Notes under the pieces: model-generated
What the model was told of the DNA's origin: nothing
Databases searched by the model: none
What the model saw: only the letters and a program-made list of their open reading frames with translations
Part shown: positions 4,649-44,421 of the stretch, one piece after another
Layout of the letters: each line of letters opens with the position of its first letter
Position numbering within the stretch: position 1 is the stretch's first letter
Program-made: the position numbers and the translations under genes
From: Cobetia marina
GTDB taxonomy: Bacteria; Pseudomonadota; Gammaproteobacteria; Pseudomonadales; Halomonadaceae
Assembly: GCF_001720485.1 (NCBI RefSeq)
Contig: NZ_CP017114.1
Span: 1,488,001 to 1,552,000, forward strand
Length of the DNA: 64,000 nucleotides
Direction of reading: 5' to 3'

Positions 4649-5665
4649 TCAATGGTAGCCATCGGTGTGACGGACCTTGCCCTTGAACACGAAGTAGCTC
4701 CACGCCGTGTACACCAGGATGATCGGCAGGATGAAGAGCGTACCGACGAGGGCAAAGCCCTGGCTCTGTGGCGGAGAGGCCGCTTCCCAGATCGTCACAT
4801 GACCGGGAATGATGTCAGGCCACATGCTGATGCCGAAACCGCTGTAGCCCAGGAAGATCAAGGCCAGCACCAGCAGGAAAGGCTGGGCATGATATTCAAG
4901 GGCGACGGCGCGGATCAGCGCATAACCGGCCAGTACTACCAGCACTGGCACCGGCAGGAACCAGAACAGCTGCGGCAGCGTGAACCAGCGCTCGGCGATG
5001 GCGGGGCGCGCCAGCGGAGTCCACAGACTGACGGCCGCGATCATGATCAATACCCACAGCGTCAGCGGGCGCGTCAGGGCAAACATGCGCGCCTGGAGAA
5101 TGCCTTCGGTCTTCATGATCAGCCAGGTGCTGCCGAGCAATGCATAGGTGAACAGCAGCGCCACACCGCAGAACAGCGGGAAGGGTGACAACCAGTCCAG
5201 CGAACCGCCGCTGAAGTGAACCCCATCGAAGGCGATGCCCTGGATGTAGCCTCCCAGTGCGACGCCTTGACTGAAGGTGGCCAGCACCGAGCCGCCCACG
5301 AAGGCCTTGTCCCACCAGTGGCGACTCGCGTCCGAGGCCTTGAAGCGAAATTCGAAGGCGACACCGCGGAAGATGAGGCCGATCAACATGGCGACAAGGG
5401 GAATGCTCAGGGCTTCCAGCAAGACGGCGTAGGCCAGCGGAAAGGCTACAAATAGCCCGGCGCCGCCCAGCACCAACCATGTCTCGTTGCCATCCCACAC
5501 GGGGGCCACGGTATTCATCATCACATCGCGGTCCACCTTTTCCTCCACCCACGGGAAGAGAATGCCGATGCCCAGATCAAAGCCGTCCATGATCACATAC
5601 ATCATCAGGCCGAACAGGATGATGCCCGCCCAGATGACAGAAAGGTCGATACCCATAGCGTTCAT
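4649..5665 (-). CDS. cydB: Cytochrome bd-type quinol oxidase subunit II
   Basis: A 338-residue integral membrane protein of the CydB/CioB family. It starts with the conserved VIWAGIILFGLMMYVIMDGFDLGIG-type first helix (seen from about residue 10) and has WDGNETWLV at about residue 57. About eight to nine helices can be recognised. With CydA it forms the quinol oxidase that reduces oxygen to water in the cytoplasmic membrane. An in-frame ATG three codons further in (5656) is an alternative start. It lies eight bases after cydA and overlaps the DUF2474 gene, so the three form an operon. Confidence 0.92.
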   Translation of the reverse strand: MNAMGIDLSVIWAGIILFGLMMYVIMDGFDLGIGILFPWVEEKVDRDVMMNTVAPVWDGNETWLVLGGAGLFVAFPLAYAVLLEALSIPLVAMLIGLIFRGVAFEFRFKASDASRHWWDKAFVGGSVLATFSQGVALGGYIQGIAFDGVHFSGGSLDWLSPFPLFCGVALLFTYALLGSTWLIMKTEGILQARMFALTRPLTLWVLIMIAAVSLWTPLARPAIAERWFTLPQLFWFLPVPVLVVLAGYALIRAVALEYHAQPFLLVLALIFLGYSGFGISMWPDIIPGHVTIWEAASPPQSQGFALVGTLFILPIILVYTAWSYFVFKGKVRHTDGYH

Positions 5666-5673
5666 CGCTCCGG

Positions 5674-7089
5674 TCAGTGAGTGGTGCCGTCGAGAGATTC
5701 CTCGATGGCCGACAGTGGGCGGGATGGCGTGCGTGGCTTGCCGGGGCCGCCGCTGGGGGCGTGGCTGTCATCACCCGCCGGCCCTTTCTTGATCAGCTTG
5801 AAGAGGTAGTTGATCCCCGTGCCGAAGACGATGAAGTACACCGTGACAAAGGCCGTCAGGCTGATGCTGAGGTGAACGGCGCTGTGGGCAGAGACGGCAT
5901 CTTCCGTTCTCATCAAACCGTAGATCACCCACGGCTGGCGGCCGACTTCGGTGGTGAACCAGCCCGCGAGTATCGCGATCAGACCGGCCGGCCCCATGGC
6001 GACGGCCAGCCTCAGCCAGCGCCGCGAGATAAAGAGCCTACCCTTGCGAGCCAGATAGACACCCGAGAGGCCGAGCAGAATCATCGCAAGGCCCAGGCCA
6101 ACCATCAGGCGGAAGCTCCAGAACACGATGGTCGAATTGGGACGGTCCGCGGCGGGGAAGTCCTTGAGCGCCGGTACCTGCTTGTCGATGTCATGCATCA
6201 ACAGCAGGCTGCCGAGAGCCGGGATCTCGAGCGCGAAGCGCGTCTCTTCGCGCTGCATGTCGGGCACACCGAACAGGATCAACGGCGTCGGTTCCCCATG
6301 GCTGTTGTCCCAATGACCTTCGATGGCCGCGATCTTGGCCGGTTGGTGCTTGAGCGTATTCAGGCCATGCATGTCGCCGACGAAGGCCTGCAGCGGGGCG
6401 GTCACCATCAACATCAGCACCGCCATGACCAGCATCTTGCGCACTTCCGGGGTGTCGCGTTTCTTGAGCAGCAACCAGGCGGCGGAGGCAGCGACGAACA
6501 GCGAGGTGCTCAGGAAGGAGGCCAGTGCCATGTGGGCCAGGCGATAGGGGAAGGAGGGGTTGAAGACGATCGCGAACCAGTCGACCGGCACGACGATGCC
6601 ATCAATGACCTCGTGCCCCTGTGGGGTCTGCATCCAGCTGTTGGACGACAGGATCCAGAACATCGAGACCAGGGTGCCGAGTGCGACCATGCAGGTCGAG
6701 AAGAAGTGCAGGCCGCGACCGACGCGATTCCAGCCAAATAGCATCACGCCGAGGAAGCCGGCTTCGAGGAAGAAGGCGGTCAGCACTTCATAGGTCAGCA
6801 GTGGCCCGGTCACGCTGCCGGCAAAGGCCGAGAAACCGCTCCAATGCGTGCCGAACTGGTAGGCCATGACCAGTCCCGACACCACACCCATCGCGAAGTT
6901 GACCGCGAATATCTTCGACCAGAAATGATAGAGATTGCGGTAGACCTGTGTGCCTGTCTTCAACCACATGCCTTCCAGCACCGCCAGATAGCTGGCGAGG
7001 CCAATGGTGATGGCCGGGAAGATGATGTGAAACGAGATGGTGAAGGCGAACTGTATCCTGGCCAGGTCGATGGCCTCGGTGCCGAACAT
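5674..7089 (-). CDS. cydA: Cytochrome bd-type (cyanide-insensitive) ubiquinol oxidase subunit I
   Basis: A 471-residue CydA/CioA protein. His 21 in the first helix (FTISFHIIFPA) corresponds to a haem ligand. GRQPWVIYG near residue 390 is the family signature. The Q-loop region is short, which places it with the cyanide-insensitive CIO subgroup rather than the long-loop E. coli CydA. The C-terminal 35 residues are rich in Pro, Gly and Ser and face the cytoplasm. AGGAGAC precedes ATG 7089. It is the first gene of the cydA-cydB-DUF2474 operon and supports respiration at low oxygen or in the presence of haem-copper oxidase inhibitors. Confidence 0.93.
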   Translation of the reverse strand: MFGTEAIDLARIQFAFTISFHIIFPAITIGLASYLAVLEGMWLKTGTQVYRNLYHFWSKIFAVNFAMGVVSGLVMAYQFGTHWSGFSAFAGSVTGPLLTYEVLTAFFLEAGFLGVMLFGWNRVGRGLHFFSTCMVALGTLVSMFWILSSNSWMQTPQGHEVIDGIVVPVDWFAIVFNPSFPYRLAHMALASFLSTSLFVAASAAWLLLKKRDTPEVRKMLVMAVLMLMVTAPLQAFVGDMHGLNTLKHQPAKIAAIEGHWDNSHGEPTPLILFGVPDMQREETRFALEIPALGSLLLMHDIDKQVPALKDFPAADRPNSTIVFWSFRLMVGLGLAMILLGLSGVYLARKGRLFISRRWLRLAVAMGPAGLIAILAGWFTTEVGRQPWVIYGLMRTEDAVSAHSAVHLSISLTAFVTVYFIVFGTGINYLFKLIKKGPAGDDSHAPSGGPGKPRTPSRPLSAIEESLDGTTH

Positions 7090-7667: not shown

Positions 7668-9089
7668 TCAGGCTGCCTTGAGCAATTCACCCAATGTTTG
7701 CATGGCGCGCTCTGACGCCGCGTCCCACGGGTGGCCGTAGCTCAAGCGAATGCAATGCTTGAAGCCCTGGGTGGCCGAGAAGATGGGCCCCGGCGCCAGG
7801 CTGATGCCGTGGGCCAGTGCCTGCTGAAACAGGGCCAGCGAGTCGATGTGCTCGGGAAGCTCGCACCACAGGAAATAGCCCCCGTGGGGATGGGTAACGC
7901 GGGTGTCTGCAGGGAAGTAGCGATCAATGGCTGCCAGCATGGCCGTCTGCTGGGTCTCGAGCGCCAGGCGTAGCTTGCGCAGGTGGCGGTCGTAGCCGCC
8001 ATGCTGGAGGTAGTCGGCCAGGGCCACCTGGGCAGGCAGCGATGGCGAGATGGTCGTCATCAGCTTGAGGCGCGAAATCTCCCGGGTATGCCGCCCCGCG
8101 GATATCCAGCCCACCCGATAGCCCGGCGCCAGGCACTTGGAGAACGACCCGCAGTGCATCACCAGGCCCTCGACATCCAGCGCCTTGACGGGCTGCGGGG
8201 GCGACACCTCGGCACGTTGATCGAAATAAAGCTCCGCGTAGACATCATCCTCCAGCATCGGCAGCTGATGACGGCAGAGCAGCGCATACAGTTGCGCCTT
8301 GCGCGCATCGCTCAAGCTGGCCCCCAGCGGATTCTGCAGATGGCTCATGAACCAGCAGGCCTTGATGGGCAGCGTCTCCAGACGATTCTCGAGCACCTCG
8401 AGATCGATCCCGTCGCGCGGGTGTACCGGAATTTCCACCGCGCGCAGCTTGAGCCGCTCAAGCACCTGAAGCGTGGCATAGAAGGCCGGCGCCTCGATGG
8501 CGACCAGGTCCCCGGTCTGGGTGACACATTGCAGGCCAAGATTGAGCGCTTCCATGGCGCCATTGGTGATCACCAGCGCCTCTGTCGGCAGCTGCATGCC
8601 GTTGACCATGTAGCGCTGAGCGATCTGTCGGCACAGGTCAGGATGGCCTGTGGTCATGTCGGAGATCACGGCATGCGATGACAGCTGGCGCAGCCCACGC
8701 GTCATGCTGGTCGCAAGCCGCGCGAGCGGAAAGAGCTCCGGGCTCGGGAAGGCAGAGCCGAAGGGCACGGTGTCGTTGTCGCGCAGTGAGCCCAGCACCG
8801 AGAACACCAGTTCACTGACGGCGACATCGGAAGGGGCTTGCTGCTGCAGGGCGACATGCGGCTCATCAAGTATCCGTGAGGCATTGTCGCGCACGAAATA
8901 TCCCGAGCGCGGCCGCGCACTGATCAATCCCTGATTCTCCAGCAGGTAATACGCCTGGAAGACGGTAGAGGGGCTGATGCCATGCGCCTTGCTGGCCTGA
9001 CGCACCGACGGCACGCGCTCACCCGGCGCGAGAATGCCGGTTCGAATCAGGTTGGAGATCTCGGCGGCAAAGCGTTCATAACGCTTCAT
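7668..9089 (-). CDS. MocR-type regulator: GntR DNA-binding domain fused to a PLP aminotransferase-like domain
   Basis: A 473-residue protein. Residues 1-75 form a GntR winged helix-turn-helix (ILAPGERVPSVRQASKAHGISPSTVFQAYY). The rest is a class I/II aminotransferase fold with ITNGAMEAL, the LEDDVYAEL segment and a lysine in SFSKCLAPGYRVGW expected to bind pyridoxal phosphate. MocR proteins sense PLP-linked amines or amino acids and regulate nearby or distant genes. AGGAAAG precedes ATG 9089. It is divergent from urtA across a 460-base region that contains nitrogen-control sites, but nothing shows that it regulates urea uptake. Confidence 0.9.
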   Translation of the reverse strand: MKRYERFAAEISNLIRTGILAPGERVPSVRQASKAHGISPSTVFQAYYLLENQGLISARPRSGYFVRDNASRILDEPHVALQQQAPSDVAVSELVFSVLGSLRDNDTVPFGSAFPSPELFPLARLATSMTRGLRQLSSHAVISDMTTGHPDLCRQIAQRYMVNGMQLPTEALVITNGAMEALNLGLQCVTQTGDLVAIEAPAFYATLQVLERLKLRAVEIPVHPRDGIDLEVLENRLETLPIKACWFMSHLQNPLGASLSDARKAQLYALLCRHQLPMLEDDVYAELYFDQRAEVSPPQPVKALDVEGLVMHCGSFSKCLAPGYRVGWISAGRHTREISRLKLMTTISPSLPAQVALADYLQHGGYDRHLRKLRLALETQQTAMLAAIDRYFPADTRVTHPHGGYFLWCELPEHIDSLALFQQALAHGISLAPGPIFSATQGFKHCIRLSYGHPWDAASERAMQTLGELLKAA

Positions 9090-34024: not shown

Positions 34025-34579
34025 CGGACATCGGATTAGTTGCCGAAGTGTCGTCGCAGTAGTGACGTATTCAGACATCATCGCTCCCTGGAGTTCTTGT
34101 CTCAGGGATGAGCTCAACAGATGAGGTGAATCTTCTGTAACAGAGAGTAATTTAACGTATCATTCCAGTGATCAGAAGTTATCTTTATCATGTGGACCCC
34201 TGCGTCGTCATGACACAGATAATATTGTGCGTGACGTCGTCGAGTCTGTAGACCTGCTTCATTTTGCCAACTATGTTGACAGATTCCGGGGAGGCTGACC
34301 CGATGATGGGCAAGCAGGGCCTTGCGATGGCTTGACTAATGGCAACCTCCTGTTTCACTACTCAAAAAGTGGGTGGCGTCTCCTCCTTTGAGCGGTCTTC
34401 ATTGTGGTGGCAGGAAAGACTGTGTAAAATTTCGCGTCCAGAGTTCGTCATTCGATAACTCAGCTTGAAAGAGTCTATCTAGAGGAAGAGTCTATCTAGA
34501 TCGCATAGAGACAAGACTCTTTGATATCCCCAAGATAAACCCCAGTGTGATAAAGACACCTTGGATAAGTAGAGTCATT
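34025..34579. other. Intergenic region upstream of the O-antigen-ligase-like gene
   Basis: About 550 AT-richer bases. It contains a 15-bp direct repeat (34469-34483 and 34486-34500) and probably the promoter of the next gene. No gene, tRNA or terminator is evident. Confidence 0.55.
34469..34500. repeat. Direct repeat AAGAGTCTATCTAGA, two copies
   Basis: The two 15-bp copies start 17 bases apart, about 80-110 bases before the ligase-like gene. AAAGAGTC also recurs inverted as GACTCTTT at 34515-34522. These could be regulator sites. Confidence 0.55.
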
Positions 34580-35899
34580 ATGCAACCTGTAAAGTGTTGG
34601 TATTCGATTGATGATCGTCTCGGAGCTCGTTGGCTGGCTTATATAGGCATCATATCGTTATTATTATATGCCGCTTTACAATTTGTCTTGCCAAACACTC
34701 AAGAAGTGATGGAACGAGTCTTGGCATTTTCGGGGCTTGTCGCATTCTGTGTATACGGTAAAGGCTTGCGCAAGGCCCCCCTCTTACTATTGCTGGGGTT
34801 TCTCTGCGTACAATTGTTTTCCTGGAGCCTGGGATTATGGCAGTACCCGCAATGGGCGATAGATGACCCAAGGCTCCAGGATCTGGCCAAATTGTTTATC
34901 TTCATCAGTGTGGCGTGGTGGTTGAACGGAAGTACACGAAATACTCTCATCGTGTGGGGACTGGCAGTCGGCGGGGTCTTGGTCACGACGCTATTTGCAC
35001 CAGGTGACGACGGATGGCTCACCGGGTTTACTGGGGAAAGAGTGGGATTCGGAATCCGTAATAACCAGCATGCATCCATGTTGTTTGGGGTTTCGCTATT
35101 GGGTTTGCTCTGTTTTGCTCGTCGCTTTTGGAGCGACGGTAACGCGCGGTATTTGAGAATAGCGCTTTGGTGCCTGGCGATGGTGATGGTGGTGACTGGC
35201 ATCGCCGTTGGTCAGACAAGAGCCGTCTGGCTCAGTGCAACGATTGCGAGTGGCATCGGTCTGATACTCTGGGTTATCAAGTCCGTACTGGAGGGTAGAA
35301 CCAGACATTTGACAAAGTATCTCGTCACAATTTCATTATCCATAGTAATCGGGGCAGGGGTACTGGTCTCTACACTGGGAGACTCTCTCAATCATCGCTT
35401 CCATAAAGAGAGCAGTGTGATATCTCAGTTGGTAGATGGCGAAATCACGGAAGTTCCTTATACAAGCATCGGCATTCGTATCAATAGCTGGATCGCGGCG
35501 AGCCAGTGGATTGCGGAACGCCCGATGACAGGGTGGGGACCTGAAGGGCGTCAGTTGGTCATGTCGAAAACGACCTGGCTGCCAGATTGGGTACTGGCAA
35601 AATATGGCCACCTGCATAATTACTTCCTTGAAACCTGGGTCGAATATGGGATTGTTGGACTTGTCGCGATGTCTCTATTGGCATTCTGGATTGGCCGTGC
35701 CACCTGGCTCGCGTGGCGGGGTAATGCGATGCCTGATGACATTGCCTGCTTCGGCCTGATGTTCTTCATCTATTGGATGATAATCAGTAACTTTGAATCC
35801 TATAATTCATTCCCGACAGGCCTGTTTGTCCATAATCTGATTGTCGGTGGTTTGATCACGCATTATTGGCGTTGGCGTTTAAGTCACCAGACTGCGTAA
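34580..35899 (+). CDS. O-antigen ligase family membrane protein (WaaL/Wzy_C type)
   Basis: 439 residues from ATG 34580; a GTG at 34547 would add eleven. About eleven to twelve helices are visible. The large periplasmic loop contains the family pattern: RINSWIAASQWIAERPMTGWGPEG and GHLHNYFLETWVEYGIVGL, whose His is functionally important in WaaL and related ligases. The preceding GQTRAVWL is also typical. Such proteins join undecaprenyl-linked glycans to lipid A-core or polymerise repeat units. It is a single-gene unit with its own terminator, next to the glycerol-phosphate polymer operon. Which polymer it handles is inference. Confidence 0.82.
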   Translation: MQPVKCWYSIDDRLGARWLAYIGIISLLLYAALQFVLPNTQEVMERVLAFSGLVAFCVYGKGLRKAPLLLLLGFLCVQLFSWSLGLWQYPQWAIDDPRLQDLAKLFIFISVAWWLNGSTRNTLIVWGLAVGGVLVTTLFAPGDDGWLTGFTGERVGFGIRNNQHASMLFGVSLLGLLCFARRFWSDGNARYLRIALWCLAMVMVVTGIAVGQTRAVWLSATIASGIGLILWVIKSVLEGRTRHLTKYLVTISLSIVIGAGVLVSTLGDSLNHRFHKESSVISQLVDGEITEVPYTSIGIRINSWIAASQWIAERPMTGWGPEGRQLVMSKTTWLPDWVLAKYGHLHNYFLETWVEYGIVGLVAMSLLAFWIGRATWLAWRGNAMPDDIACFGLMFFIYWMIISNFESYNSFPTGLFVHNLIVGGLITHYWRWRLSHQTA

Positions 35900-35959: not shown

Positions 35960-36579
35960 GAATACAAGATTATTGAATGTCACCTAATATGAGCAAGAGG
36001 TGCCAGTAAGCTGAAAGGGGACGAGTGAGTCCATGCTTCTGATACGGTGCATCATTGAAATATTTATGAATAATGATCCGGGTCTCTGATTTGAGGTATC
36101 TCAAGCGGTCATCAGATAGACACGATCTGCTACGCATCACCATCTGGTGATATCCTCTAGACTTTCCTCCACTGTTGCATCGATAGATAAATACAGTGAG
36201 TGTTGGAGTAATGCAAATGAATAATTCAGTGAAAACATGAGCTGGGGAGTGGCATACGATGGAAGCGATCAATTACTGACCAAGCTAGAAGGCGGGAGGT
36301 TAAAGCCAGAAAAATATCTGAAGACTGAGACGCATTACTATCGTACTGAGAGCCGCTCTCATGATAAATAATTAACATGATCTGATGCTTGCGAGTCTGC
36401 TCTGTCCCATCCGGTGCCGGGTGCATTTCACAAGAACAGCACCGTTCCTGTCGATCCCTTGGTCGCGTCATGCCTACGATGGACACTAAGGTGATGATTA
36501 TCCGATGTTTTCTTGATCTTGCACCTGCAGGAAGATGGGCTTCATTGCCCTGAATCTAGCCAAATATGACGAAAATATG
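35960..36579. other. Long AT-rich region before the surface-polymer operon
   Basis: About 620 bases without a recognised gene. A 44-codon ORF at 36237 is the only coding candidate. The sequence reads like accessory DNA of low GC. Confidence 0.5.
36237..36371 (+). CDS. Possible 44-residue small protein
   Basis: ATG 36237 overlaps (ATGA) the stop of a 9-codon ORF (36211-36240) that has GGAG just upstream, so the two could be translationally coupled. The product would be hydrophilic, with a basic C-terminal half and no membrane segment. There is no family match that I recognise. It may be only a chance frame. Confidence 0.25.
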   Translation: MSWGVAYDGSDQLLTKLEGGRLKPEKYLKTETHYYRTESRSHDK

Positions 36580-36585
36580 TATAAT
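36580..36585 (+). promoter_or_regulatory. Probable -10 box of the surface-polymer operon
   Basis: TATAAT preceded by TG (TGTATAAT, 36578-36585). No good -35 is seen. Transcription from about 36592 would give a leader of roughly 140 bases containing a hairpin and the ops element. Confidence 0.45.
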
Positions 36586-36694: not shown

Positions 36695-36706
36695 GGCGGT
36701 AGCGTG
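36695..36706 (+). promoter_or_regulatory. ops element (RfaH recruitment site)
   Basis: GGCGGTAGCGTG is identical to the core ops/JUMPstart sequence that pauses RNA polymerase and loads RfaH in enterobacterial capsule and LPS operons. It lies 27 bases before the first gene of a polysaccharide operon, the expected place. RfaH would suppress Rho termination along this low-GC operon. Confidence 0.85.
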
Positions 36707-36733: not shown

Positions 36734-38179
36734 ATGAAAGGCATCTTGCGCAAGATAGGTAAGCATAAGTTATTGCCAGTCGTATTTTCCGTTATTTCGC
36801 TTCTGGTTGGTAGTATGGTAACCGGTTCTGTCACTTCATTCACGATAGCCATATTTGCACTAGTATGCGGGTTGCAATTCCTGACGGGAAAATCAGCAAA
36901 GCTAGAGTATTATCTGTCTGGCTTGGAAGTCAAAGTGGCTTCCAATGAAAACTCTATTGGTAAATACGGGCAGAAAATCAATTTTGCTGCCTCACTTGTA
37001 CCGTTATTGACAAGTCAATTGGGTTTATATGTACTCCCTATAGTACTACTATATATCGTGACTTCGCTGATTGTCGCATGGCCGGTCATCCTCAAATTAT
37101 TCAATAGAAAAAAGATAAGAGCGTATGCCGTGAAGGTGCTTGAGACAAAGCGTCCGACCGTCGCCGTGTACGTAACTGGAATGAAGGGGGTCGCATATCA
37201 AATCAACCAATGGCTTCCTGTATTGGAAAAGCTGGATCAGCCAGTGATTATCATACTTCGTGAGGCTGATATTTTCTCAGGGATGCTGCCTACGGATATT
37301 CTTACAGTAACGGCTAGAACACAGATCGATCTTGAGGCCATATTGGGCGGGGCTACCTCCGTAAAGAAAGTATTATATCCCGCCAATACGATGAAAAATG
37401 TGCAAGCATTGCGTTATCACCACCTGGATCATATTTTCATTAATCATGGTGAGAGTGATAAAGCCGTTAACCAAAGCAAATTGCTGATGGCCTATGATTA
37501 TCTGTTTGTGGCTGGCCCTCTCTCGGAAGAGCGTTTGAGAGCTGCAGGGCTTCCGCTGAGAGAAGGGCAGGTGTTACATGTTGGACGTCCTCAAGCGGAA
37601 ATGGCGCTGAAATATCAAAAGGAGATAAATAGAATAAACACTATTCTGTATGCTCCTACTTGGGAAGGGCATGTCAAGAAAGTTGATTACAGCTCCATTG
37701 GAGAATTAGGTTACAAGTTATGTAAAGAAATTATAGAGCATGATAGTTTTTCACTAATATTCAAGCCTCATCCTTATACTGGTAGTATAAGCAGTACTCA
37801 TAAGTATTGGTTAAGCAAGATCCTGAAGTTGTGCGAAGATCATGGTGTTGAAGTGCTGGATGAAAATAACTCACTGCATTGCGCAATGAACTCAAGCGAT
37901 ATATTGGTGTGTGATATTTCAAGCGTATTGAATGAATATCTTGTTACAGGGAAACCTATCATTCTTTGTAATACCCAATCACTTGATTTTGAACAATTGC
38001 ATTCAGAGTATCCTTCTGCTGCGGCAGCTAGCCTTGTCAATGTAGAAAGTAATATTGTAGATGTCATACAACTGATTGAAAGAGAAGATCCACTCCAAGC
38101 ATCAAGACAGAGGTTGAGAGTTTCTTCCTTGGGTGATCGGATAGATGATCCTTTGAGTATGTTCAAGTCACTACTATAG
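36734..38179 (+). CDS. CDP-glycerol glycerophosphotransferase-like protein, membrane-anchored
   Basis: A 481-residue protein. The first 130 residues carry two hydrophobic stretches (about 12-55 and 90-125), followed by a GT-B-like domain. NHGESDKAVNQSKLLMAYDYLFVAGP near residue 237, YAPTWEG, FKPHPYTG and CDISSVLNEYL match the teichoic acid TagB/TagF catalytic region (HG, PHP and D-SS motifs). It probably transfers glycerol phosphate from CDP-glycerol, as a primase or polymerase, at the inner membrane. It is the first gene after the ops element. Low GC compared with the rest of the window indicates horizontal acquisition. Confidence 0.78.
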   Translation: MKGILRKIGKHKLLPVVFSVISLLVGSMVTGSVTSFTIAIFALVCGLQFLTGKSAKLEYYLSGLEVKVASNENSIGKYGQKINFAASLVPLLTSQLGLYVLPIVLLYIVTSLIVAWPVILKLFNRKKIRAYAVKVLETKRPTVAVYVTGMKGVAYQINQWLPVLEKLDQPVIIILREADIFSGMLPTDILTVTARTQIDLEAILGGATSVKKVLYPANTMKNVQALRYHHLDHIFINHGESDKAVNQSKLLMAYDYLFVAGPLSEERLRAAGLPLREGQVLHVGRPQAEMALKYQKEINRINTILYAPTWEGHVKKVDYSSIGELGYKLCKEIIEHDSFSLIFKPHPYTGSISSTHKYWLSKILKLCEDHGVEVLDENNSLHCAMNSSDILVCDISSVLNEYLVTGKPIILCNTQSLDFEQLHSEYPSAAAASLVNVESNIVDVIQLIEREDPLQASRQRLRVSSLGDRIDDPLSMFKSLL

Positions 38180-38194
38180 TATGGATGTTGTCGC

Positions 38195-38962
38195 ATGAAT
38201 TTTTTCACTCATTTCAAGATAATGCTTGCAACATGGTCGTTAATAAATAAAGAGTCTCCTTACTTTATCGGTGGTGCATTCTTTTTAGCAACATCCAGGC
38301 TGTTTCAACTGGCTGCTTTTTTCCTACCATTGAAGATACTTATCTTGGTCTCATCGGATGTTAAGCCAAGCTACATGCAAATATTACCATTTGACTTTGG
38401 TTTGAACGAAGCTGTTGTAATTTTTTCCTGCCTTGTTCCTATTGTCTATATCATGTATATAGTATGTGGGGTAATAAGTCGAAGAAGCCTCGACTATAGT
38501 CAATCTATCTTCATTGAAAATAGTGCTATTCCATCCAAAGATAAAAAAGCTAACAAGCTTAAAAAGATGCATGGACACATCGGAAAAGCAGCATCTGAAT
38601 TCATTTTAATTTCGTTATCCATGTTGCTGGTGTTAATGGTAAGTATCTCTACTGCATTAATATTGCTATTAATGATGATAATCACGATAGCTGCTATGTT
38701 CAAGATAGCGATATTCATGAAAGATACTGACAGGACTCATTACTTCAAGTTGCATCGGAAGCAATGTATAGAATATGCTACTTCTGCAAATTTTATATTG
38801 GTATTTGTTGTCATCCTGACTCAGGTGATGTACTTGGGGATGGGAGTAATCGTAGCAATTTACGTATTACTGATATCACGAATGCTATTCCAAGCACTTC
38901 AGCGTTACTGTATAGAGTTGATGTATATCGATGTTGATTTATTAGGTTCAAATATGAGATGA
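38195..38962 (+). CDS. Unknown six-helix membrane protein of the polymer operon
   Basis: A 255-residue protein with about six hydrophobic helices (around residues 24-50, 68-92, 132-152, 153-172, 197-215 and 213-235) and a basic cytoplasmic loop near 115-125. The arrangement resembles the membrane half of an exporter-type ABC protein, but there is no ATPase domain, and I do not recognise a family. It lies 15 bases after the first glycerophosphotransferase-like gene. A role in exporting or anchoring the polymer is inference only. Codon use is AT-rich like its neighbours. Confidence 0.7.
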   Translation: MNFFTHFKIMLATWSLINKESPYFIGGAFFLATSRLFQLAAFFLPLKILILVSSDVKPSYMQILPFDFGLNEAVVIFSCLVPIVYIMYIVCGVISRRSLDYSQSIFIENSAIPSKDKKANKLKKMHGHIGKAASEFILISLSMLLVLMVSISTALILLLMMIITIAAMFKIAIFMKDTDRTHYFKLHRKQCIEYATSANFILVFVVILTQVMYLGMGVIVAIYVLLISRMLFQALQRYCIELMYIDVDLLGSNMR

Positions 38963-39096
38963 ATAATTCATATCGTCGATTATATCTCGACTAAACTAAA
39001 TCAAAAAACGCAAGTGGTTAAGCCGAATTGTGCCACCATCTTTTATAAGATGGCAACGTCATTTCTAGCGTCAAGTTTCACATACTGGAATAAGTA

Positions 39097-41037
39097 ATGA
39101 ACCAGGTATCGTATACTGTATCCTCTCCCGCTTCTGCAATGGATGATATTGAAGACATTATTGTTGCGACCTATGACAGTAATGTTTTGGTCATAAGTGA
39201 TCGAACTCACTCAAGGTTTATATCCTTGAATATAGATAAACTGTTGGGGGTTGATAAGATAGCATTCAAGGTTCGACTGAAGCAAAATGAGATGAATAAG
39301 ATATTATTGGTACAGGAGCTGCCTGCTACTGATGAGATCTTGATCGTTTATTCTAACAAGCACTCATTGAGTTGCCTGAGAAAAGCCAATAAAGGTAATC
39401 ACCCATTAAAGCAGTTTGTGAAGGTCAAGTTTAAGATTCTAAATCTATATGTAAGTAAGAATAAGGTTGCGTTGACTTACGTTGCATTTATTTCAAATCC
39501 ATACAATTTGAATATTTCGAATACAAGAATCTATCTTGACGATAATAATGTACTTCCTGTGGAGATTCCGGTTGGGAAGTCATTTGTAAAATCCAAGCTT
39601 AAATTGTTGAGTTTGGTGAAGATAGCCAAGTTTGGAATGCCAAGTTTATTGAAAGGTGGAGAGCCACCTATCAATAGCCAAGTTAAAATGGCACTCGATA
39701 TTGACGGTGACACTGCAGTCTATCCTTCACAGACCCTAAAGATACATAAACAAAAAAACAGAAGATTGTACAGTGTGCCTGTTTCAACATGCTACACTGA
39801 AAATTTTGCAGTTCACTTTAGACGTACTTATAATGGGACACCGACCCTGGTAAGACGCCAAAAAAATGCAATTGAGGATGATTTCAAATTCAGGTTATTC
39901 GAATCGAGACCAATTAGCTTCTTGCTGTATCATATGGGCAGATTTTCCAGGTCCATTAGTGATGTGAATCATAATATCTACTTTGAGAAATATGCTTGTA
40001 AAGCAGAGGAGGGTGCTTATAATCTTTTCTGCAAAACAACAAACAGTAAAAATTCTAAGAATTACTATGTCATTGACGAAGAGTCAGATGATTATGCTGA
40101 TATCAAACATAATGACAAGGTATTGAAGAAGTATTCTTATAGCTATTACTGGCACTTGTTTAGAGCAAATTATTTTATCTCTACTGAAGCTCCAGCTCAC
40201 GTAAATTTATTGAGAAGTAATAACAAGTATGTAAGAAGAAAGTTGATAACAACACCGTTTGTCTTCTTGCAGCATGGAATTACATATTTGAAGAACCACG
40301 ATAGAAAGGGGGTTTACGCGAAAAATAGAGAAGCAGAGCCAGCTTATATGGTAGTGAGTAGTGAAAAAGAAAAAAAAGTCGTCTCAGAAATGTTGCGCCT
40401 TCCTGAAGATAGATTATTGAATGTTGGTATGCCTGCATTTGATGATGTTGAGTATTCAAGTATCAACGATCTTACTGATGATGTTTTGACTATCATGTTG
40501 ACTTGGAAACCATATGAAGAGCATTTGAATGATTTCACGGCGACAAGTTATTACCGTAATACTGTTGCAGTCGCTCATCTGCTAAAAGCAAAGTTACCTG
40601 CACTCAATATTCGAGTAGTTGCTCATCCGAAAGTATATGATGCTTTATGTCGCACAGATTTAAAGGATCAGCTATGGGTGGGTAAAATTTCTGATGCCCT
40701 GAAAGATACTAAGCTACTAATCACTGACTATTCTTCAGTCTGCTATAATTCATTTTACCGCGGCGCAGGTGTAATTTTCTTTCAACCAGATATTGTAGAT
40801 TATGAACGCGAAACAGGCCCTTTGGTACCGCAGGAACATGAATATATCGGTTATAGAAGTTATTCTATTGAGGGGCTTAATGAAATTATCGATAGTGCGA
40901 TATCTAACAATAAAATAAACCTTTCCTATGTACGAACTACTGAGCACGAGTTTAGATATAAAGAGATCAATCAGTTTAGCGATGGCAACAATATCGATAG
41001 GCTGTTTAGTGCCCTTACTTCACTCAAGATTATTTGA
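39097..41037 (+). CDS. CDP-glycerol glycerophosphotransferase family protein (TagF-like)
   Basis: A 646-residue protein. The N-terminal 240 residues are beta-rich and not recognised. From about residue 290 it follows the Glyphos_transf pattern: YFISTEAPAHVN, FLQHGITYLKNHDRK (catalytic His), VGMPAFDDV, LTWKPYEEH, AHPKVY and LLITDYSSVCYNSFYR. The best-known members polymerise poly(glycerol phosphate) or add glycerol phosphate in wall teichoic acid and in some Gram-negative capsules. It has no membrane segment. Base composition is strongly AT-rich. Confidence 0.82.
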   Translation: MNQVSYTVSSPASAMDDIEDIIVATYDSNVLVISDRTHSRFISLNIDKLLGVDKIAFKVRLKQNEMNKILLVQELPATDEILIVYSNKHSLSCLRKANKGNHPLKQFVKVKFKILNLYVSKNKVALTYVAFISNPYNLNISNTRIYLDDNNVLPVEIPVGKSFVKSKLKLLSLVKIAKFGMPSLLKGGEPPINSQVKMALDIDGDTAVYPSQTLKIHKQKNRRLYSVPVSTCYTENFAVHFRRTYNGTPTLVRRQKNAIEDDFKFRLFESRPISFLLYHMGRFSRSISDVNHNIYFEKYACKAEEGAYNLFCKTTNSKNSKNYYVIDEESDDYADIKHNDKVLKKYSYSYYWHLFRANYFISTEAPAHVNLLRSNNKYVRRKLITTPFVFLQHGITYLKNHDRKGVYAKNREAEPAYMVVSSEKEKKVVSEMLRLPEDRLLNVGMPAFDDVEYSSINDLTDDVLTIMLTWKPYEEHLNDFTATSYYRNTVAVAHLLKAKLPALNIRVVAHPKVYDALCRTDLKDQLWVGKISDALKDTKLLITDYSSVCYNSFYRGAGVIFFQPDIVDYERETGPLVPQEHEYIGYRSYSIEGLNEIIDSAISNNKINLSYVRTTEHEFRYKEINQFSDGNNIDRLFSALTSLKII

Positions 41038-41126
41038 TATCAAGCAGATGTGATAAGGGTGAATGGATATTAGCTTCCACCTTGATAATGCCTGAATAGG
41101 GTTAAGCTATGATGAGGTTATATTAG

Positions 41127-41621
41127 ATGAAGCATAACCCAATAGATATTTCACATGAGAGTGTGAAAACGGTTATTACCTATGGCACGTTTGATATGTT
41201 CCATATCGGGCATCTCAATCTCCTGAAGCGTCTCAGTGAGAGAGGTGATCGTCTGATAGTCGGTGTGTCAACTGATGAGTTCAACTTGCTGAAAGGCAAG
41301 AAGACACTGATTCCCTACGATCAGCGTGCCAAGATCGTGGAAGCGATCGATTGTGTAGATCTCGTGATTCCTGAAAACGACTGGGAGCAAAAAGTACGCG
41401 ACGTCAAGGAATATAATGTCGATACTTTCGCAATAGGGGAAGATTGGAAAGGGGAGTTCGACTTTCTGCAGGAATATTGTGAAGTGCTGTATATGGAGCG
41501 CACCAAGGATATATCCACGACGGATCTGAAACGCTCACTGAAGCGGTTCTTGTCAATTCCTCATGAAGATCTCATCAAGGCTTTCGAAGTCTTGGAATTG
41601 CTCCGTAGAGATCTTGAATAA
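41127..41621 (+). CDS. Glycerol-3-phosphate cytidylyltransferase (TagD/GCT type)
   Basis: A 164-residue nucleotidyltransferase, slightly longer than TagD (about 129-132). YGTFDMFHIGHLNLLKR at about residues 19-35 holds the HxGH motif (H26, H29), and RTKDISTTDLK is the RTxGISTT-type motif that binds the triphosphate. It makes CDP-glycerol from glycerol 3-phosphate and CTP, the donor needed by the two glycerophosphotransferase-like proteins upstream. The last 30 residues are an additional helical extension. Confidence 0.88.
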   Translation: MKHNPIDISHESVKTVITYGTFDMFHIGHLNLLKRLSERGDRLIVGVSTDEFNLLKGKKTLIPYDQRAKIVEAIDCVDLVIPENDWEQKVRDVKEYNVDTFAIGEDWKGEFDFLQEYCEVLYMERTKDISTTDLKRSLKRFLSIPHEDLIKAFEVLELLRRDLE

Positions 41622-41640
41622 TGATGATGTTACAAACGCT

Positions 41641-43026
41641 ATGAAAGTTCAAAATCGCGTCTTGAGTGGCTATACCATGTATACCACTGAATTGGTACGC
41701 CTGGTCGATTTCTGTATTATCTTTCTGGCAGGGTTCAGTGCACACTGGTTCCATTTTGGGGGACTGGATGTTTCCGAGAGATATGGTTGGGGCATGTTGC
41801 TGGGGGGGATATTAGCTCTTCTGGTACTGCCGCATTTCAATATCTATCGTTCCTGGAGAGGACAAGTCCGCTTCCGCCTGGTATTCCAGATCATGGCCGG
41901 ATACATGATGTTGGGAGGGCTGTTGGCGCTGGTCATGTTCATGACCAAGACAGGTGACAAGTTCTCCCGGCTGTGGGTTGGCTATTGGATGGTAAGTGCT
42001 ACGACATACTCCATCCTGATTCGTGCGATTGCTTATCCTGTTCTCAACCATCTGCGAGCCAAGGGCAAGAACCGCAAAAGCGTCCTCTTGATTGGTGATG
42101 CCTTGACCTGTGTTGGTGCAGTGCGTCAGCTGGCCAAGATCCCGACAGCAGGCTTTGATGTAGAACGAGTCATCTTGACTGGGGGGATTGAGCATTGGGG
42201 GTGGAGCGCAATTGAGCCAGAGCGCTACCAGCCTGACCAACAGATCGTCCATCAGGAGCAGGAAGTCTGGATCTGTCTCCCATTGACGCAAGGTAACCTG
42301 GTTCGTGATATCCAGTCAGAGTTGAGCCTGACGACCTGCAATGTGCGTTACATGCCCGATATGCGTGATTTTCGCCTTATCAACCATGATGTATCAGATG
42401 TTGCCGGTCTGTTCATGCTTGATCTGAGTTGCAGTCGCATGTCGCTGGGGGCAAAGCTTCTCAAGTGGATCGAGGATCGCCTGCTGTCATTGATCATCGT
42501 GATTCTGCTGTCACCTTTATTGGCGCTTATCGCGCTATTGGTGAAATGTACCTCTGCGGGCCCGGTGTTCTATACCCAGGAAAGGGTCGGGTTGAACGGA
42601 AAGCCCTTCAAGATGCTGAAATTCCGCTCGATGCCAGTCGACAGTGAAAAGGGTGGGGTGCAGTGGGGAAATGCCCAGGCGAAACGAACTACCCTTGTGG
42701 GCAGGTTCCTTCGCAAGACCAGCCTGGATGAGTTGCCGCAGTTCCTCAACGTGCTCAAAGGTGACATGTCAATCGTGGGGCCGCGTCCGGAACGCACGAT
42801 CTTCGTCGAAAAACTTCGTCACGAAATTCCTGGTTATATGCAAAAGCACATGGTCAAGGCCGGTATCACGGGCTGGGCACAGATCAATGGTTGGCGAGGC
42901 GATACGGACCTGGCCAAGCGAATTGAATGCGACCTGTGGTATGTAGAGCATTGGTCATTATGGCTGGACTTACGTATCATCATGCTGACTCTCTTCAAGG
43001 GTTTGATCCATAAACATGCGTACTGA
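41641..43026 (+). CDS. Undecaprenyl-phosphate sugar phosphotransferase (WcaJ/WbaP type)
   Basis: 461 residues from ATG 41641. Four N-terminal helices (about residues 15-125) are followed by a CoA-binding-like domain, a fifth hydrophobic segment (about 285-305) and the bacterial sugar transferase domain, with FRSMPVDSEKGG, LRKTSLDELPQFLNVLKGDMSIVGPRPER and a final GLIHKHAY. It transfers a hexose 1-phosphate to undecaprenyl phosphate and so starts assembly of a lipid-linked glycan. GC content is higher than in the genes before it, so the operon is a mosaic. Confidence 0.9.
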   Translation: MKVQNRVLSGYTMYTTELVRLVDFCIIFLAGFSAHWFHFGGLDVSERYGWGMLLGGILALLVLPHFNIYRSWRGQVRFRLVFQIMAGYMMLGGLLALVMFMTKTGDKFSRLWVGYWMVSATTYSILIRAIAYPVLNHLRAKGKNRKSVLLIGDALTCVGAVRQLAKIPTAGFDVERVILTGGIEHWGWSAIEPERYQPDQQIVHQEQEVWICLPLTQGNLVRDIQSELSLTTCNVRYMPDMRDFRLINHDVSDVAGLFMLDLSCSRMSLGAKLLKWIEDRLLSLIIVILLSPLLALIALLVKCTSAGPVFYTQERVGLNGKPFKMLKFRSMPVDSEKGGVQWGNAQAKRTTLVGRFLRKTSLDELPQFLNVLKGDMSIVGPRPERTIFVEKLRHEIPGYMQKHMVKAGITGWAQINGWRGDTDLAKRIECDLWYVEHWSLWLDLRIIMLTLFKGLIHKHAY

Positions 43027-43044
43027 CACATTGGTGAAAGTGAA

Positions 43045-44328
43045 ATGAATATCGAAGTCGAAAAATCCTATCGGCTTCTACGGTTTTTGAATAAACCACG
43101 CCACCCATTACTTCGTTATCCTTTGGCCTTGTTATCCGGCATTGGTGTGTGGATGTTGGGTGCGCCTCTGGCCGTAGCGGCAGACAGTATCAAGCTCGCA
43201 TCGCGAAGCAATGGACTGAAAATCGTCGTGCGGCGAGGCATCTGGTTTGCGCATACCGGGTGGCTGCCAGTGTCGACCAGGTCTGATTTCTTTTTCGATA
43301 TTTCTGAAGAAATGTCTACCAAGGCGGCCGACTGCCTCATTGCCTGGTTGGCTGACAACCAGCGCATCACTGACTTTGAGCGCCATATCTGGCAGGCTGA
43401 TCTGCATGGTGGGAAGCTGGAAAAAGCCGATTTCTCAGAGTGTGATAATGATCGTGATACGTCTACCAGCAGTCTGGTCATCTCTCCGCAAGACTCACTC
43501 TGGCAATATGACAAATCCTTCTGCGCCAGCGTCAATCATGCATTGTCGATCATCAGCGCTGACTTGGACAATCCGACAGCAGCGCCTGTCGTGGCGCATA
43601 AGTTCCAGAAGTCAGCGCAGTCGTTTGACAAGAATGATGCCTATCGCACGATCAAGGATTGCGATAGTTTGATGGGTAGCCTTGAGTGGCCCTGGTATGT
43701 CATCAGTGGCACGCTTCTTGGAGCCGTGAGAGAACAGGATTTCCTGGGACATGACTACGATATTGATATCGGTGTCGACGCCAAGGACTTCGATATCAAG
43801 CAACTTCGAGATGCTGTTGCTGGATCCGACAATACCTGGTTCATAAAGTCAGAAAGTTATTGTACTTTCCGGGAAGTCGTATCCGAGCGTGCCGTGCGAT
43901 ATTCCAGATTGACTCAGCCGATACTTGTCAAACTCGTGCACCATACCGGCCTTGTCGCTGACCTTTTTGTTCATGTGCAAGAGGGGAGCGTCGTCTGGCA
44001 TGGCTCCGCTATCCACCGGTGGGACAACTCGGAGTTTTCGTTGACTGACTACACCTTGGGCAGTCAGGTAGTCAAAGGTGCTGCAGATGCAGATCGTTAC
44101 TTGACTGAGAACTATGGCGATTGGCGTACCCCCGTGACGCGTTTCGATTGTAGTATTGATCCTCCCAATATCCGTTATTCTCGAACTGCGCGTTCAATCA
44201 CGTACTTGAGCAAGGTCATTTATCGCTATCTGCTTGACGGTGATGTCGAGAAGGCACGTCAATACCTTTCTGCACTGGAAAGCGATGGGATGATCCTCAA
44301 GCAAGACGGTGTCTATCGTTATTGTTAG
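43045..44328 (+). CDS. LicD-like phosphotransferase
   Basis: A 427-residue protein. The N-terminal 200 residues are not recognised and include one hydrophobic segment (about 30-50). The motif YVISGTLLGAVRE followed by HDYDIDIGV (about residues 218-244) and the later YLTENYGDWRTP are the LicD/fukutin nucleotidyltransferase-fold signature. LicD proteins attach phosphocholine or similar phospho-groups to teichoic acids and other surface glycans. In this operon it could decorate or link the glycerol-phosphate polymer; the donor is unknown. Last gene before a strong terminator. Confidence 0.78.
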   Translation: MNIEVEKSYRLLRFLNKPRHPLLRYPLALLSGIGVWMLGAPLAVAADSIKLASRSNGLKIVVRRGIWFAHTGWLPVSTRSDFFFDISEEMSTKAADCLIAWLADNQRITDFERHIWQADLHGGKLEKADFSECDNDRDTSTSSLVISPQDSLWQYDKSFCASVNHALSIISADLDNPTAAPVVAHKFQKSAQSFDKNDAYRTIKDCDSLMGSLEWPWYVISGTLLGAVREQDFLGHDYDIDIGVDAKDFDIKQLRDAVAGSDNTWFIKSESYCTFREVVSERAVRYSRLTQPILVKLVHHTGLVADLFVHVQEGSVVWHGSAIHRWDNSEFSLTDYTLGSQVVKGAADADRYLTENYGDWRTPVTRFDCSIDPPNIRYSRTARSITYLSKVIYRYLLDGDVEKARQYLSALESDGMILKQDGVYRYC

Positions 44329-44394
44329 AGGATCGCGAAGATTCGGCTTCTCGCATCGTGGGAAGGCTGACGGTATCAAGGATATGAATGACAG

Positions 44395-44421
44395 AAGCCC
44401 GCCAAATTGGCGGGCTTTTTT
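44395..44421 (+). terminator. Terminator of the surface-polymer operon
   Basis: AAGCCCGCC pairs with GGCGGGCTT around a 5-base loop, followed by a T-run (44416-44421). It lies between this operon and the convergent catabolic cluster. Confidence 0.92.

Follow-up and report, generated by a model that had tools for sequence, protein, structure and literature searches.

A 64,000-nucleotide stretch of the Cobetia marina genome (the window, positions 1488001-1552000 of a 4,176,400-base single-contig genome) carries an operon at 36734-44328 whose best reading is a cytidine diphosphate (CDP)-glycerol-dependent, teichoic-acid-like system with lipid-linked initiation. The operon is predicted to encode two glycerophosphotransferase-like proteins (CGT1 and CGT2), a six-helix membrane protein (Hel6), a glycerol-3-phosphate cytidylyltransferase (TagD), a WcaJ-type undecaprenyl-phosphate sugar transferase and a LicD-family protein. 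An original prediction from the DNA letters had listed these genes as one operon and proposed the same reading. The genes were found where it had placed them, and its reading is partly supported: in its favour are the homology of TagD, the histidine motifs of both CGTs, the Asp motif shared by the LicD protein and FKRP, a WcaJ score over the family cut-off, the linkage of such genes in TagD loci of other genomes and an ops element. A glycerol-phosphate-containing surface glycan is a highly likely product. The complete proposal, a teichoic-acid-like glycerol-phosphate surface polymer built on undecaprenyl diphosphate and ligated to lipid A-core, has about an even chance of being right. Glycerol-phosphate polymers are known in Gram-negative bacteria; here, enzymes of the same kinds are combined with initiation on undecaprenyl phosphate, in an operon without an exporter. 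If the proposal is true, teichoic-acid logic (an undecaprenyl start and a glycerol-phosphate chain) reaches the outer surface of a marine Gram-negative bacterium, apart from the known capsules anchored on 3-deoxy-D-manno-octulosonic acid (Kdo).

In the proposed pathway, WcaJ would load glucose-1-phosphate onto undecaprenyl phosphate, and TagD would produce CDP-glycerol. CGT1, which is TagB/CpsA-like, and the CpsC-like LicD protein would start the chain with glycerol-phosphate units that act as a linker or primer, and the TagF-like CGT2 would lengthen it in the cytoplasm. The product would then cross the inner membrane, a step that Hel6 might join, unless it anchors the enzymes at the membrane. 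Finally, the Wzy_C-family protein encoded just 5' of the operon would ligate this product to lipid A-core; the result would be a polyanionic O-polysaccharide.

CDP-glycerol enzymes

Supply of CDP-glycerol by the operon is almost certain. TagD, a CTP_transf_like protein by Pfam, matches the solved enzymes 1coz (E 3e-43, over 14-138) and 2b7l (E 2.7e-44). Its score against TIGR01518, the glycerol-3-phosphate cytidylyltransferase family, is 163.4 bits, two bits under the equivalog cut-off of 165.4. Despite this shortfall, homology to glycerol-3-phosphate cytidylyltransferases is certain as judged from these matches.

Both CGTs pass the PF04464 cut-off of 22.1 bits (48.7 for CGT1, 74.4 for CGT2), and they are the only PF04464 genes found in the genome. 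Three hydrophobic stretches lie near the N-terminus of CGT1 according to hydropathy, and CGT2 has no predicted transmembrane segment. Searched alone against the PDB sequences, CGT1 gave a best E of 0.09; the profile of its group (A9) finds TarL (3.9e-6) and Cps3D (1.7e-4). The profile of the five-member CGT2 group (A8) finds TagF (3l7i, 4.6e-21) and TarL (1.4e-19), the TagF score being partly due to a GT2 domain carried by some group members.

The two catalytic histidines of TagF, H444 and H584, appear to be kept in both proteins. H584, the residue changed to Ala in 3l7m, aligns with the column of CGT2 His510. CGT2 His393, which belongs to an HG motif, is invariant in group A8, and its assignment to H444 follows from this motif and from L146, not from the HMMER path; rows L143-L145 (wrong gene) and L142 (misaligned at the first His) of that alignment are left out. 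In a profile comparison of the two groups (96.6%), His238 and His346 of CGT1 align with His393 and His510 of CGT2. Loss of the CDP-glycerol site from the two large proteins, which the original prediction had named as the finding that would speak against it, is thus not seen at the sequence level.

Initiation and ligation

An undecaprenyl start is very probable. WcaJ scores 451.9 bits against TIGR03023, above the cut-off of 410.75, and 233.5 bits against PF02397; apart from WcaJ, the Pfam matches of the operon include no recognised sugar glycosyltransferase. The LicD protein aligns across its Asp motif with FKRP (6kaj, E 0.0015), a CDP-ribitol enzyme. This alignment, together with the family score, points to a LicD-family protein with a putative active-site Asp of the CpsC type. 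Its closest homologues come from Cobetia (94% and 68% identity).

Ligation of the chain as an O-antigen is evenly balanced between yes and no. The gene of the Wzy_C protein was missing from the gene list of the original prediction, and homologues occupy the same site in two congeners (L090 and L091, E 1.3e-155).

Operon layout and transcription signals

The gene order is Wzy_C, a gap of 834 bases, CGT1, Hel6, CGT2, TagD, WcaJ and LicD (Table 1). Chance or mis-called genes were ruled out by the Pfam and NCBIfam matches and by the co-occurrence of TagD and PF04464 across genomes of the family. For WcaJ, the ATG at 41641 is the more likely start because position 41563 falls within TagD.

Table 1. 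Predicted genes and transcription signals of the operon and its 5' neighbour (positions in the window)
Feature	Position	Strand	Evidence
Wzy_C-family membrane protein (O-antigen ligase or polymerase), 450 aa, candidate ligase	34547..35899	+	PF04932 64.3 bits
Promoter-like site 5' of the operon, weak, consensus match only	36557..36585	+	10/12 matches
ops element GGCGGTAGCGTG	36695..36706	+	Exact match
CGT1, PF04464 glycerophosphotransferase-like, TagB/CpsA-like candidate primase	36734..38179	+	PF04464 48.7 bits
Hel6, six-helix membrane protein, 255 aa	38195..38962	+	Fold model: type IV ABC-exporter transmembrane fold, no nucleotide-binding domain
CGT2, TagF-like PF04464 protein, 646 aa, candidate polymerase	39097..41037	+	PF04464 74.4 bits
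TagD/Gct-like glycerol-3-phosphate cytidylyltransferase	41127..41621	+	Solved-enzyme matches, TIGR01518 163.4 bits
WcaJ-type undecaprenyl-phosphate glucose-1-phosphate transferase	41641..43026	+	TIGR03023 451.9 bits, PF02397 233.5 bits
LicD-family protein (FKRP/CpsC-like nucleotidyltransferase motif), candidate CDP-glycerol-dependent transferase	43045..44328	+	PF04991 22.6 bits
Intrinsic-terminator-like hairpin 3' of LicD	44393..44419	+	12-pair stem and T tail

The ops element, the RfaH recruitment site of long surface-polysaccharide operons, has a single match in the window. Shuffled sequences have a mean of 0.05 matches, with 5 of 100 shuffles containing one. The element ends 27 bases before the start of CGT1, the first gene. 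It also occurs 250-450 bases 5' of three of the five Wza-type (PF02563) matches in the genome (L046, L049, L051); for the remaining two (L045, L052), the surrounding stretches that were read contained no copy. Promoter-like sites number 29 in the region against 21.0 (standard deviation 4.0) expected from shuffles, and the one 5' of the operon is not significant alone. Terminator-like hairpins number 4 against 8.0 expected, and the hairpin in Table 1 was picked by its length and place. With ops 5' of CGT1 and this hairpin 3' of LicD, the transcription unit probably extends from CGT1 to LicD. Its transcription is probably dependent on RfaH and ops.

Export genes and comparison with known systems

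The original prediction had reported no flippase, ABC exporter or Kps-type export gene in the window. In agreement, every match to the four families searched genome-wide, PF01943 (Wzx; three over the cut-off and one under), PF02563 (Wza; five), PF05159 (KpsS/C; three) and PF01061 (ABC2; three), lies outside it, other flippase families such as the remaining MOP families not being part of this search. The operon locus thus contains no PF01943-type Wzx, no TagGH exporter, the three ABC2_membrane genes lying elsewhere, and none of the Kps export or Kdo-anchor genes found. TagO and TagA are missing among the operon Pfam matches, no genome-wide search for them having been made. An ABC ATPase was not found among the operon proteins either, with Pfam profiles or with phmmer and an export ATPase as query. 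One further gene that looks Wzx-like by eye (L045:12412-13764) matched no Pfam family. The search of the rest of the genome, as the original prediction had suggested, recovered both Wzx-type and Kps-type genes. These could supply an exporter in trans, and two alternative pathways therefore stay alive.

Wall teichoic acid synthesis of type I uses TagO-A-B-D-F-GH. The operon shares with it an undecaprenyl-linked start, TagD, and TagB-like and TagF-like enzymes. It differs in that WcaJ replaces TagO, no TagA or TagGH was recognised in the operon, a LicD protein is present, and the host is Gram-negative.

Teichoic-acid-like capsules are known in Gram-negatives (PMC5974469), among them those of pathogens, as the original prediction had noted. 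The capsules of Actinobacillus pleuropneumoniae are made by TagB-like CpsA, CpsB, LicD-type CpsC, which polymerises glycerol-3-phosphate, and TagF-like CpsD, on a Kdo-phospholipid (PMC11666461). Its serotype 3/7 clusters are like our operon in combining a TagB-like PF04464 protein, a CDP-glycerol synthase, LicD and a TagF-like protein (PMC11666461, PMC5974469). They have a Kdo-phosphatidylglycerol anchor, ABC export and a CpsD that bears tetratricopeptide repeat (TPR) and galactosyltransferase domains. In contrast, the window operon has WcaJ initiation, no Kps genes, a CGT2 free of TPR and glycosyltransferase domains, and the extra Hel6. The novelty that had been seen in the gene combination is thus narrowed: a LicD and TagB/TagF-like set exists already in A. 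pleuropneumoniae, and it is the pairing with WcaJ that is unusual. A search of the open-licence PMC literature found no operon described with WcaJ, LicD and a TagF-like protein, although the search phrases may miss one.

Kps-type genes are located at 1595-1610 kb, about 63 kb from the operon, next to genes for CysD and APS kinase. They encode PF05159 proteins (one KpsS-like, 475 aa; one KpsC-like, 838 aa and two domains), a permease that resembles KpsM with a below-cut-off match to NF050053, an export ATPase and Wza/KpsD. The operon might feed a Kps capsule, its chain growing on Kdo-phosphatidylglycerol that KpsS/KpsC produce and leaving through the Kps exporter as in A. pleuropneumoniae, with WcaJ serving another glycan. 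Such a route is in line with three TagD loci of other Halomonadaceae where LicD is paired with a KpsT/TagH/Wzt-type ATPase and, in two cases, a TPR-bearing CGT lies in the stretch read, as does the mannose-6-phosphoglycerol of the Cobetia marina capsule (PMC11766843). We nevertheless regard it as improbable: WcaJ lies within the operon and is retained with TagD and LicD in other genera, and no kps gene is present. Moreover, the Kps cluster presumably has its own polymer, since the CysD and APS kinase genes recall the 3'-phosphoadenosine-5'-phosphosulfate (PAPS)/sulfation neighbourhood of the rhamnose-containing C. marina capsule (PMC11766843).

The operon and its neighbour also combine an undecaprenyl-phosphate sugar-phosphate transferase with a Wzy_C protein, as Wzx/Wzy-type O-antigen systems do. 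In a heteropolymer of this kind, the glycerol-phosphate transferases would finish a repeat on undecaprenyl diphosphate-glucose, a Wzx from elsewhere would flip it and Wzy_C would polymerise it. A model is offered by O-antigen clusters of Hafnia alvei that contain tagD and encode a glycerol-phosphate transferase (PMC4869667), and phosphoglycerol occurs in the O-polysaccharides of Hafnia, Citrobacter and Proteus (PMC4869667, PMC3210612, the latter covering marine O-antigens); a ribitol-phosphate O-antigen has been predicted in Haemophilus parainfluenzae (PMC3989065). The Hafnia clusters, however, have several sugar glycosyltransferases, whereas the window operon has LicD and TagF-like enzymes and no ordinary repeat unit apparent, WcaJ being the sole sugar glycosyltransferase recognised. 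Three Wzx-type genes exist in the genome (1450300, 1569064, 3242121), but each is less than 10 kb from a Wza of its own and none is in the operon. As the TagF-like CGT2 also suits chain growth, a Hafnia-like pathway is rather unlikely.

Still less probable is that the enzymes merely decorate a glycan made elsewhere with single phosphoglycerol or other CDP-alcohol groups, with no teichoic-acid-like chain. Enzymes of the LicD family are chiefly known for the transfer of single phosphocholine groups (PMC11982090, which also treats FKRP/LicD and CDP-glycerol), the Cobetia capsule carries single phosphoglycerol groups (PMC11766843), and CGT1 and CGT2 are distant from TagF. Three different CDP-glycerol-type transferases and a dedicated initiating transferase exceed the needs of one decoration, however, and the profile of the CGT2 group is TagF/TarL-like.

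Hel6 and its relatives

Hel6, the only operon protein modelled, had been noted as an unknown six-helix protein. The six helices stand, and the model now gives them the type IV ABC-exporter transmembrane fold seen in PglK and MsbA. In comparison with these exporters, the ATPase domain is lacking: the protein stops just past the sixth long helix. No Pfam family matched at E <=1, and the best PDB sequence was a G-protein-coupled receptor (E 0.2). For the locus, a PHROGs search gave nothing of use and plasmid searches returned no match.

A protein search with Hel6 gave at least eight matches, and one with the fused form at least two. Relatives in Halomonadaceae, Pseudomonas (including P. putida), Thioalkalivibrio and others carry, in place of the ATPase, a degenerate domain of the APH/choline-kinase fold, whose kinase residues were assigned visually from motifs rather than from a superposition. 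No Pfam family is matched at E <=0.001 by the fused members L130, L057, L063 and L066, the four that were scanned. The loci L104-L141 encode ABC-exporter-fold membrane domains mostly fused to the kinase-fold domain, from Pseudomonas, Thioalkalivibrio, Halomonas and others. Two Pseudomonas members of 273 aa (L137 and L138, about 7872-8783) have no second domain.

Hel6, the sole operon protein found with a transporter fold and also the sole one modelled, is put at the translocation step; a part in translocation is possible, with the balance tilting against it. More speculatively, and with low probability, Hel6 and its fused relatives might form a hitherto undescribed class of proteins that translocate glycans or regulate translocases. 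They would be transmembrane halves of ABC exporters after loss of the ATPase, and would stand alone beside TagF-like polymerases or be joined to an APH/choline-kinase-fold pseudokinase. If so, Hel6-type proteins would stand in for Wzx or an ABC exporter in these loci, moving undecaprenyl-linked polymers without ABC-type ATP hydrolysis. The motor-less exporter fold and its pseudokinase-fused family are the surprising item of this locus. In the open-licence PMC literature, no account was found of a kinase-fold domain joined to a transmembrane half of an ABC exporter, although the search phrases may miss it. The family, which also occurs in P. putida, is directly testable. Among compared Cobetia genomes, a single strain was reported to have a Wzx in its O-antigen locus, and an uncharacterised hypothetical protein was proposed for the job (PMC11766843); Hel6 bears on this gap as a candidate only in strains with this operon.

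Distribution in Halomonadaceae

The family survey covered 151 genomes, with TagD counted at E <1e-40 and statistics that ignore the kinship of the genomes. TagD is present in 18, PF04464 in 19 and both in 15. PF04464 thus occurs in 15 of the 18 TagD-bearing genomes against 4 of the 133 others (Fisher p 1.6e-14). A system private to this genome is rejected by the 19 genomes with PF04464. The gene set, earlier viewed as unusual in a marine gammaproteobacterium, is thus not rare within Halomonadaceae; what remains unusual is the WcaJ pairing, the lack of Kps, Wzx and TagGH in the operon, and the six-helix protein.

Gene content was read at 20 TagD loci of other genomes (all 17 other strong and 3 weaker matches; four of the stretches do not reach 20 kb). 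A LicD-like protein (E <=1e-4) and a CGT are each found in 12, the Hel6 family in 5, a full WcaJ in 4 and a KpsT/TagH/Wzt-type export ATPase in 3, the last label resting on PF00005 and best NCBIfam matches to teichoic-acid and galactan export ATPases, all below cut-off. Two kinds of related loci emerge. Three (L054-L056) combine export ATPase, TagD and LicD, with a TPR-bearing PF04464 protein in L055 and L056; they resemble the A. pleuropneumoniae capsule set, here outside pathogens, and none has Hel6 or WcaJ. Four others (L057, L058, L059, L066) resemble the window operon, with TagD, WcaJ (E <1e-100), a close LicD (E <1e-50) and, in the 20 kb covered, the Hel6 family and a CGT; no export ATPase was found in them. 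L063, the fifth locus with Hel6, combines CGTs with two TagDs, with no WcaJ in the stretch read.

A Wzy_C-type gene accompanies two of the four WcaJ-type loci (L058, L066). Twenty neighbour proteins scanned from these four loci, which are not all neighbours, contained no Wzx and include glycosyltransferases, sugar-nucleotide enzymes, Stealth, TupA, NeuB and Wzy_C; the Stealth-type protein lies at L066:12964-14019 and the TupA-like gene at L058:1221-2225. Three loci (L053, L063, L071) have two TagD-like genes each, perhaps for different CDP-alcohols, and one TagD homologue (G021:C18:85458-85850) contains an in-frame TAG.

Weighing the reading

Several observations weigh against the proposed pathway. 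Its enzymatic steps, assembly order, acceptor, translocation and final anchor are all deduced from sequence and fold, and the polymer itself is unseen. CGT1 matches PF04464 only in part (profile positions 126-341). CGT2 alone finds no match among the PDB sequences and has neither a TPR nor a glycosyltransferase domain, Pfam showing PF04464 only, plus a sub-cut-off match. The LicD score of 22.6 bits is exactly the PF04991 cut-off, and this protein could carry another CDP-alcohol. The Wzy_C protein might instead act as a polymerase. It may also serve another purpose than this polymer, because two congeners carry it at the same site without the operon.

For Hel6, the absence of an ATPase and of a demonstrated activity counts similarly, as does its absence from all five congeners searched. 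It does not appear specific to glycerol phosphate, since most fused relatives sit in loci without TagD and the family as a whole shows little association with TagD (present in 7 of the 18 TagD genomes and 23 of the 133 others, p 0.039); its co-occurrence with TagD was rejected as proof for this reason. The stand-alone form shows a stronger association in a tiny sample (3 of 4 in TagD genomes, p 0.005). An export ATPase is found in none of the six Hel6-bearing TagD loci (the window and five others) against 3 of the 15 others, numbers too small for a test.

Expression of the operon is uncertain because an rfaH homologue of this genome is split over two overlapping frames (G000:C1:3235247-3235712; locus L052, about 5247-5712). 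The split may be an assembly error; if real, it may mean poor expression of the ops-dependent operons of this genome.

Acquisition of the operon

The G+C content of the window is 59%, compared with 35-41% for CGT1, Hel6 and CGT2 and 44-52% for TagD, WcaJ and LicD. These two classes suggest a mosaic in which two acquired parts are joined. All five congeners have the flanking aldehyde dehydrogenase; TagD is absent from all five (best match 8.9e-8, presumably HldE). In one congener, with a left flank 97% identical, about 136 bases replace the stretch between 33490 and 44438. At this site, two congeners have the Wzy_C homologue only, and two have neither Wzy_C nor the operon.

A contig filed under an Algicola metagenome-assembled genome (L142), suspected to be misbinned, encodes a TagD nearly identical to that of the window. 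In order, it has a cut CGT1, a Hel6 containing masked bases, a GT2-fused polymerase unlike that of the window, and TagD. As the polymerase between Hel6 and TagD differs, this gene looks exchangeable, as in serotype loci.

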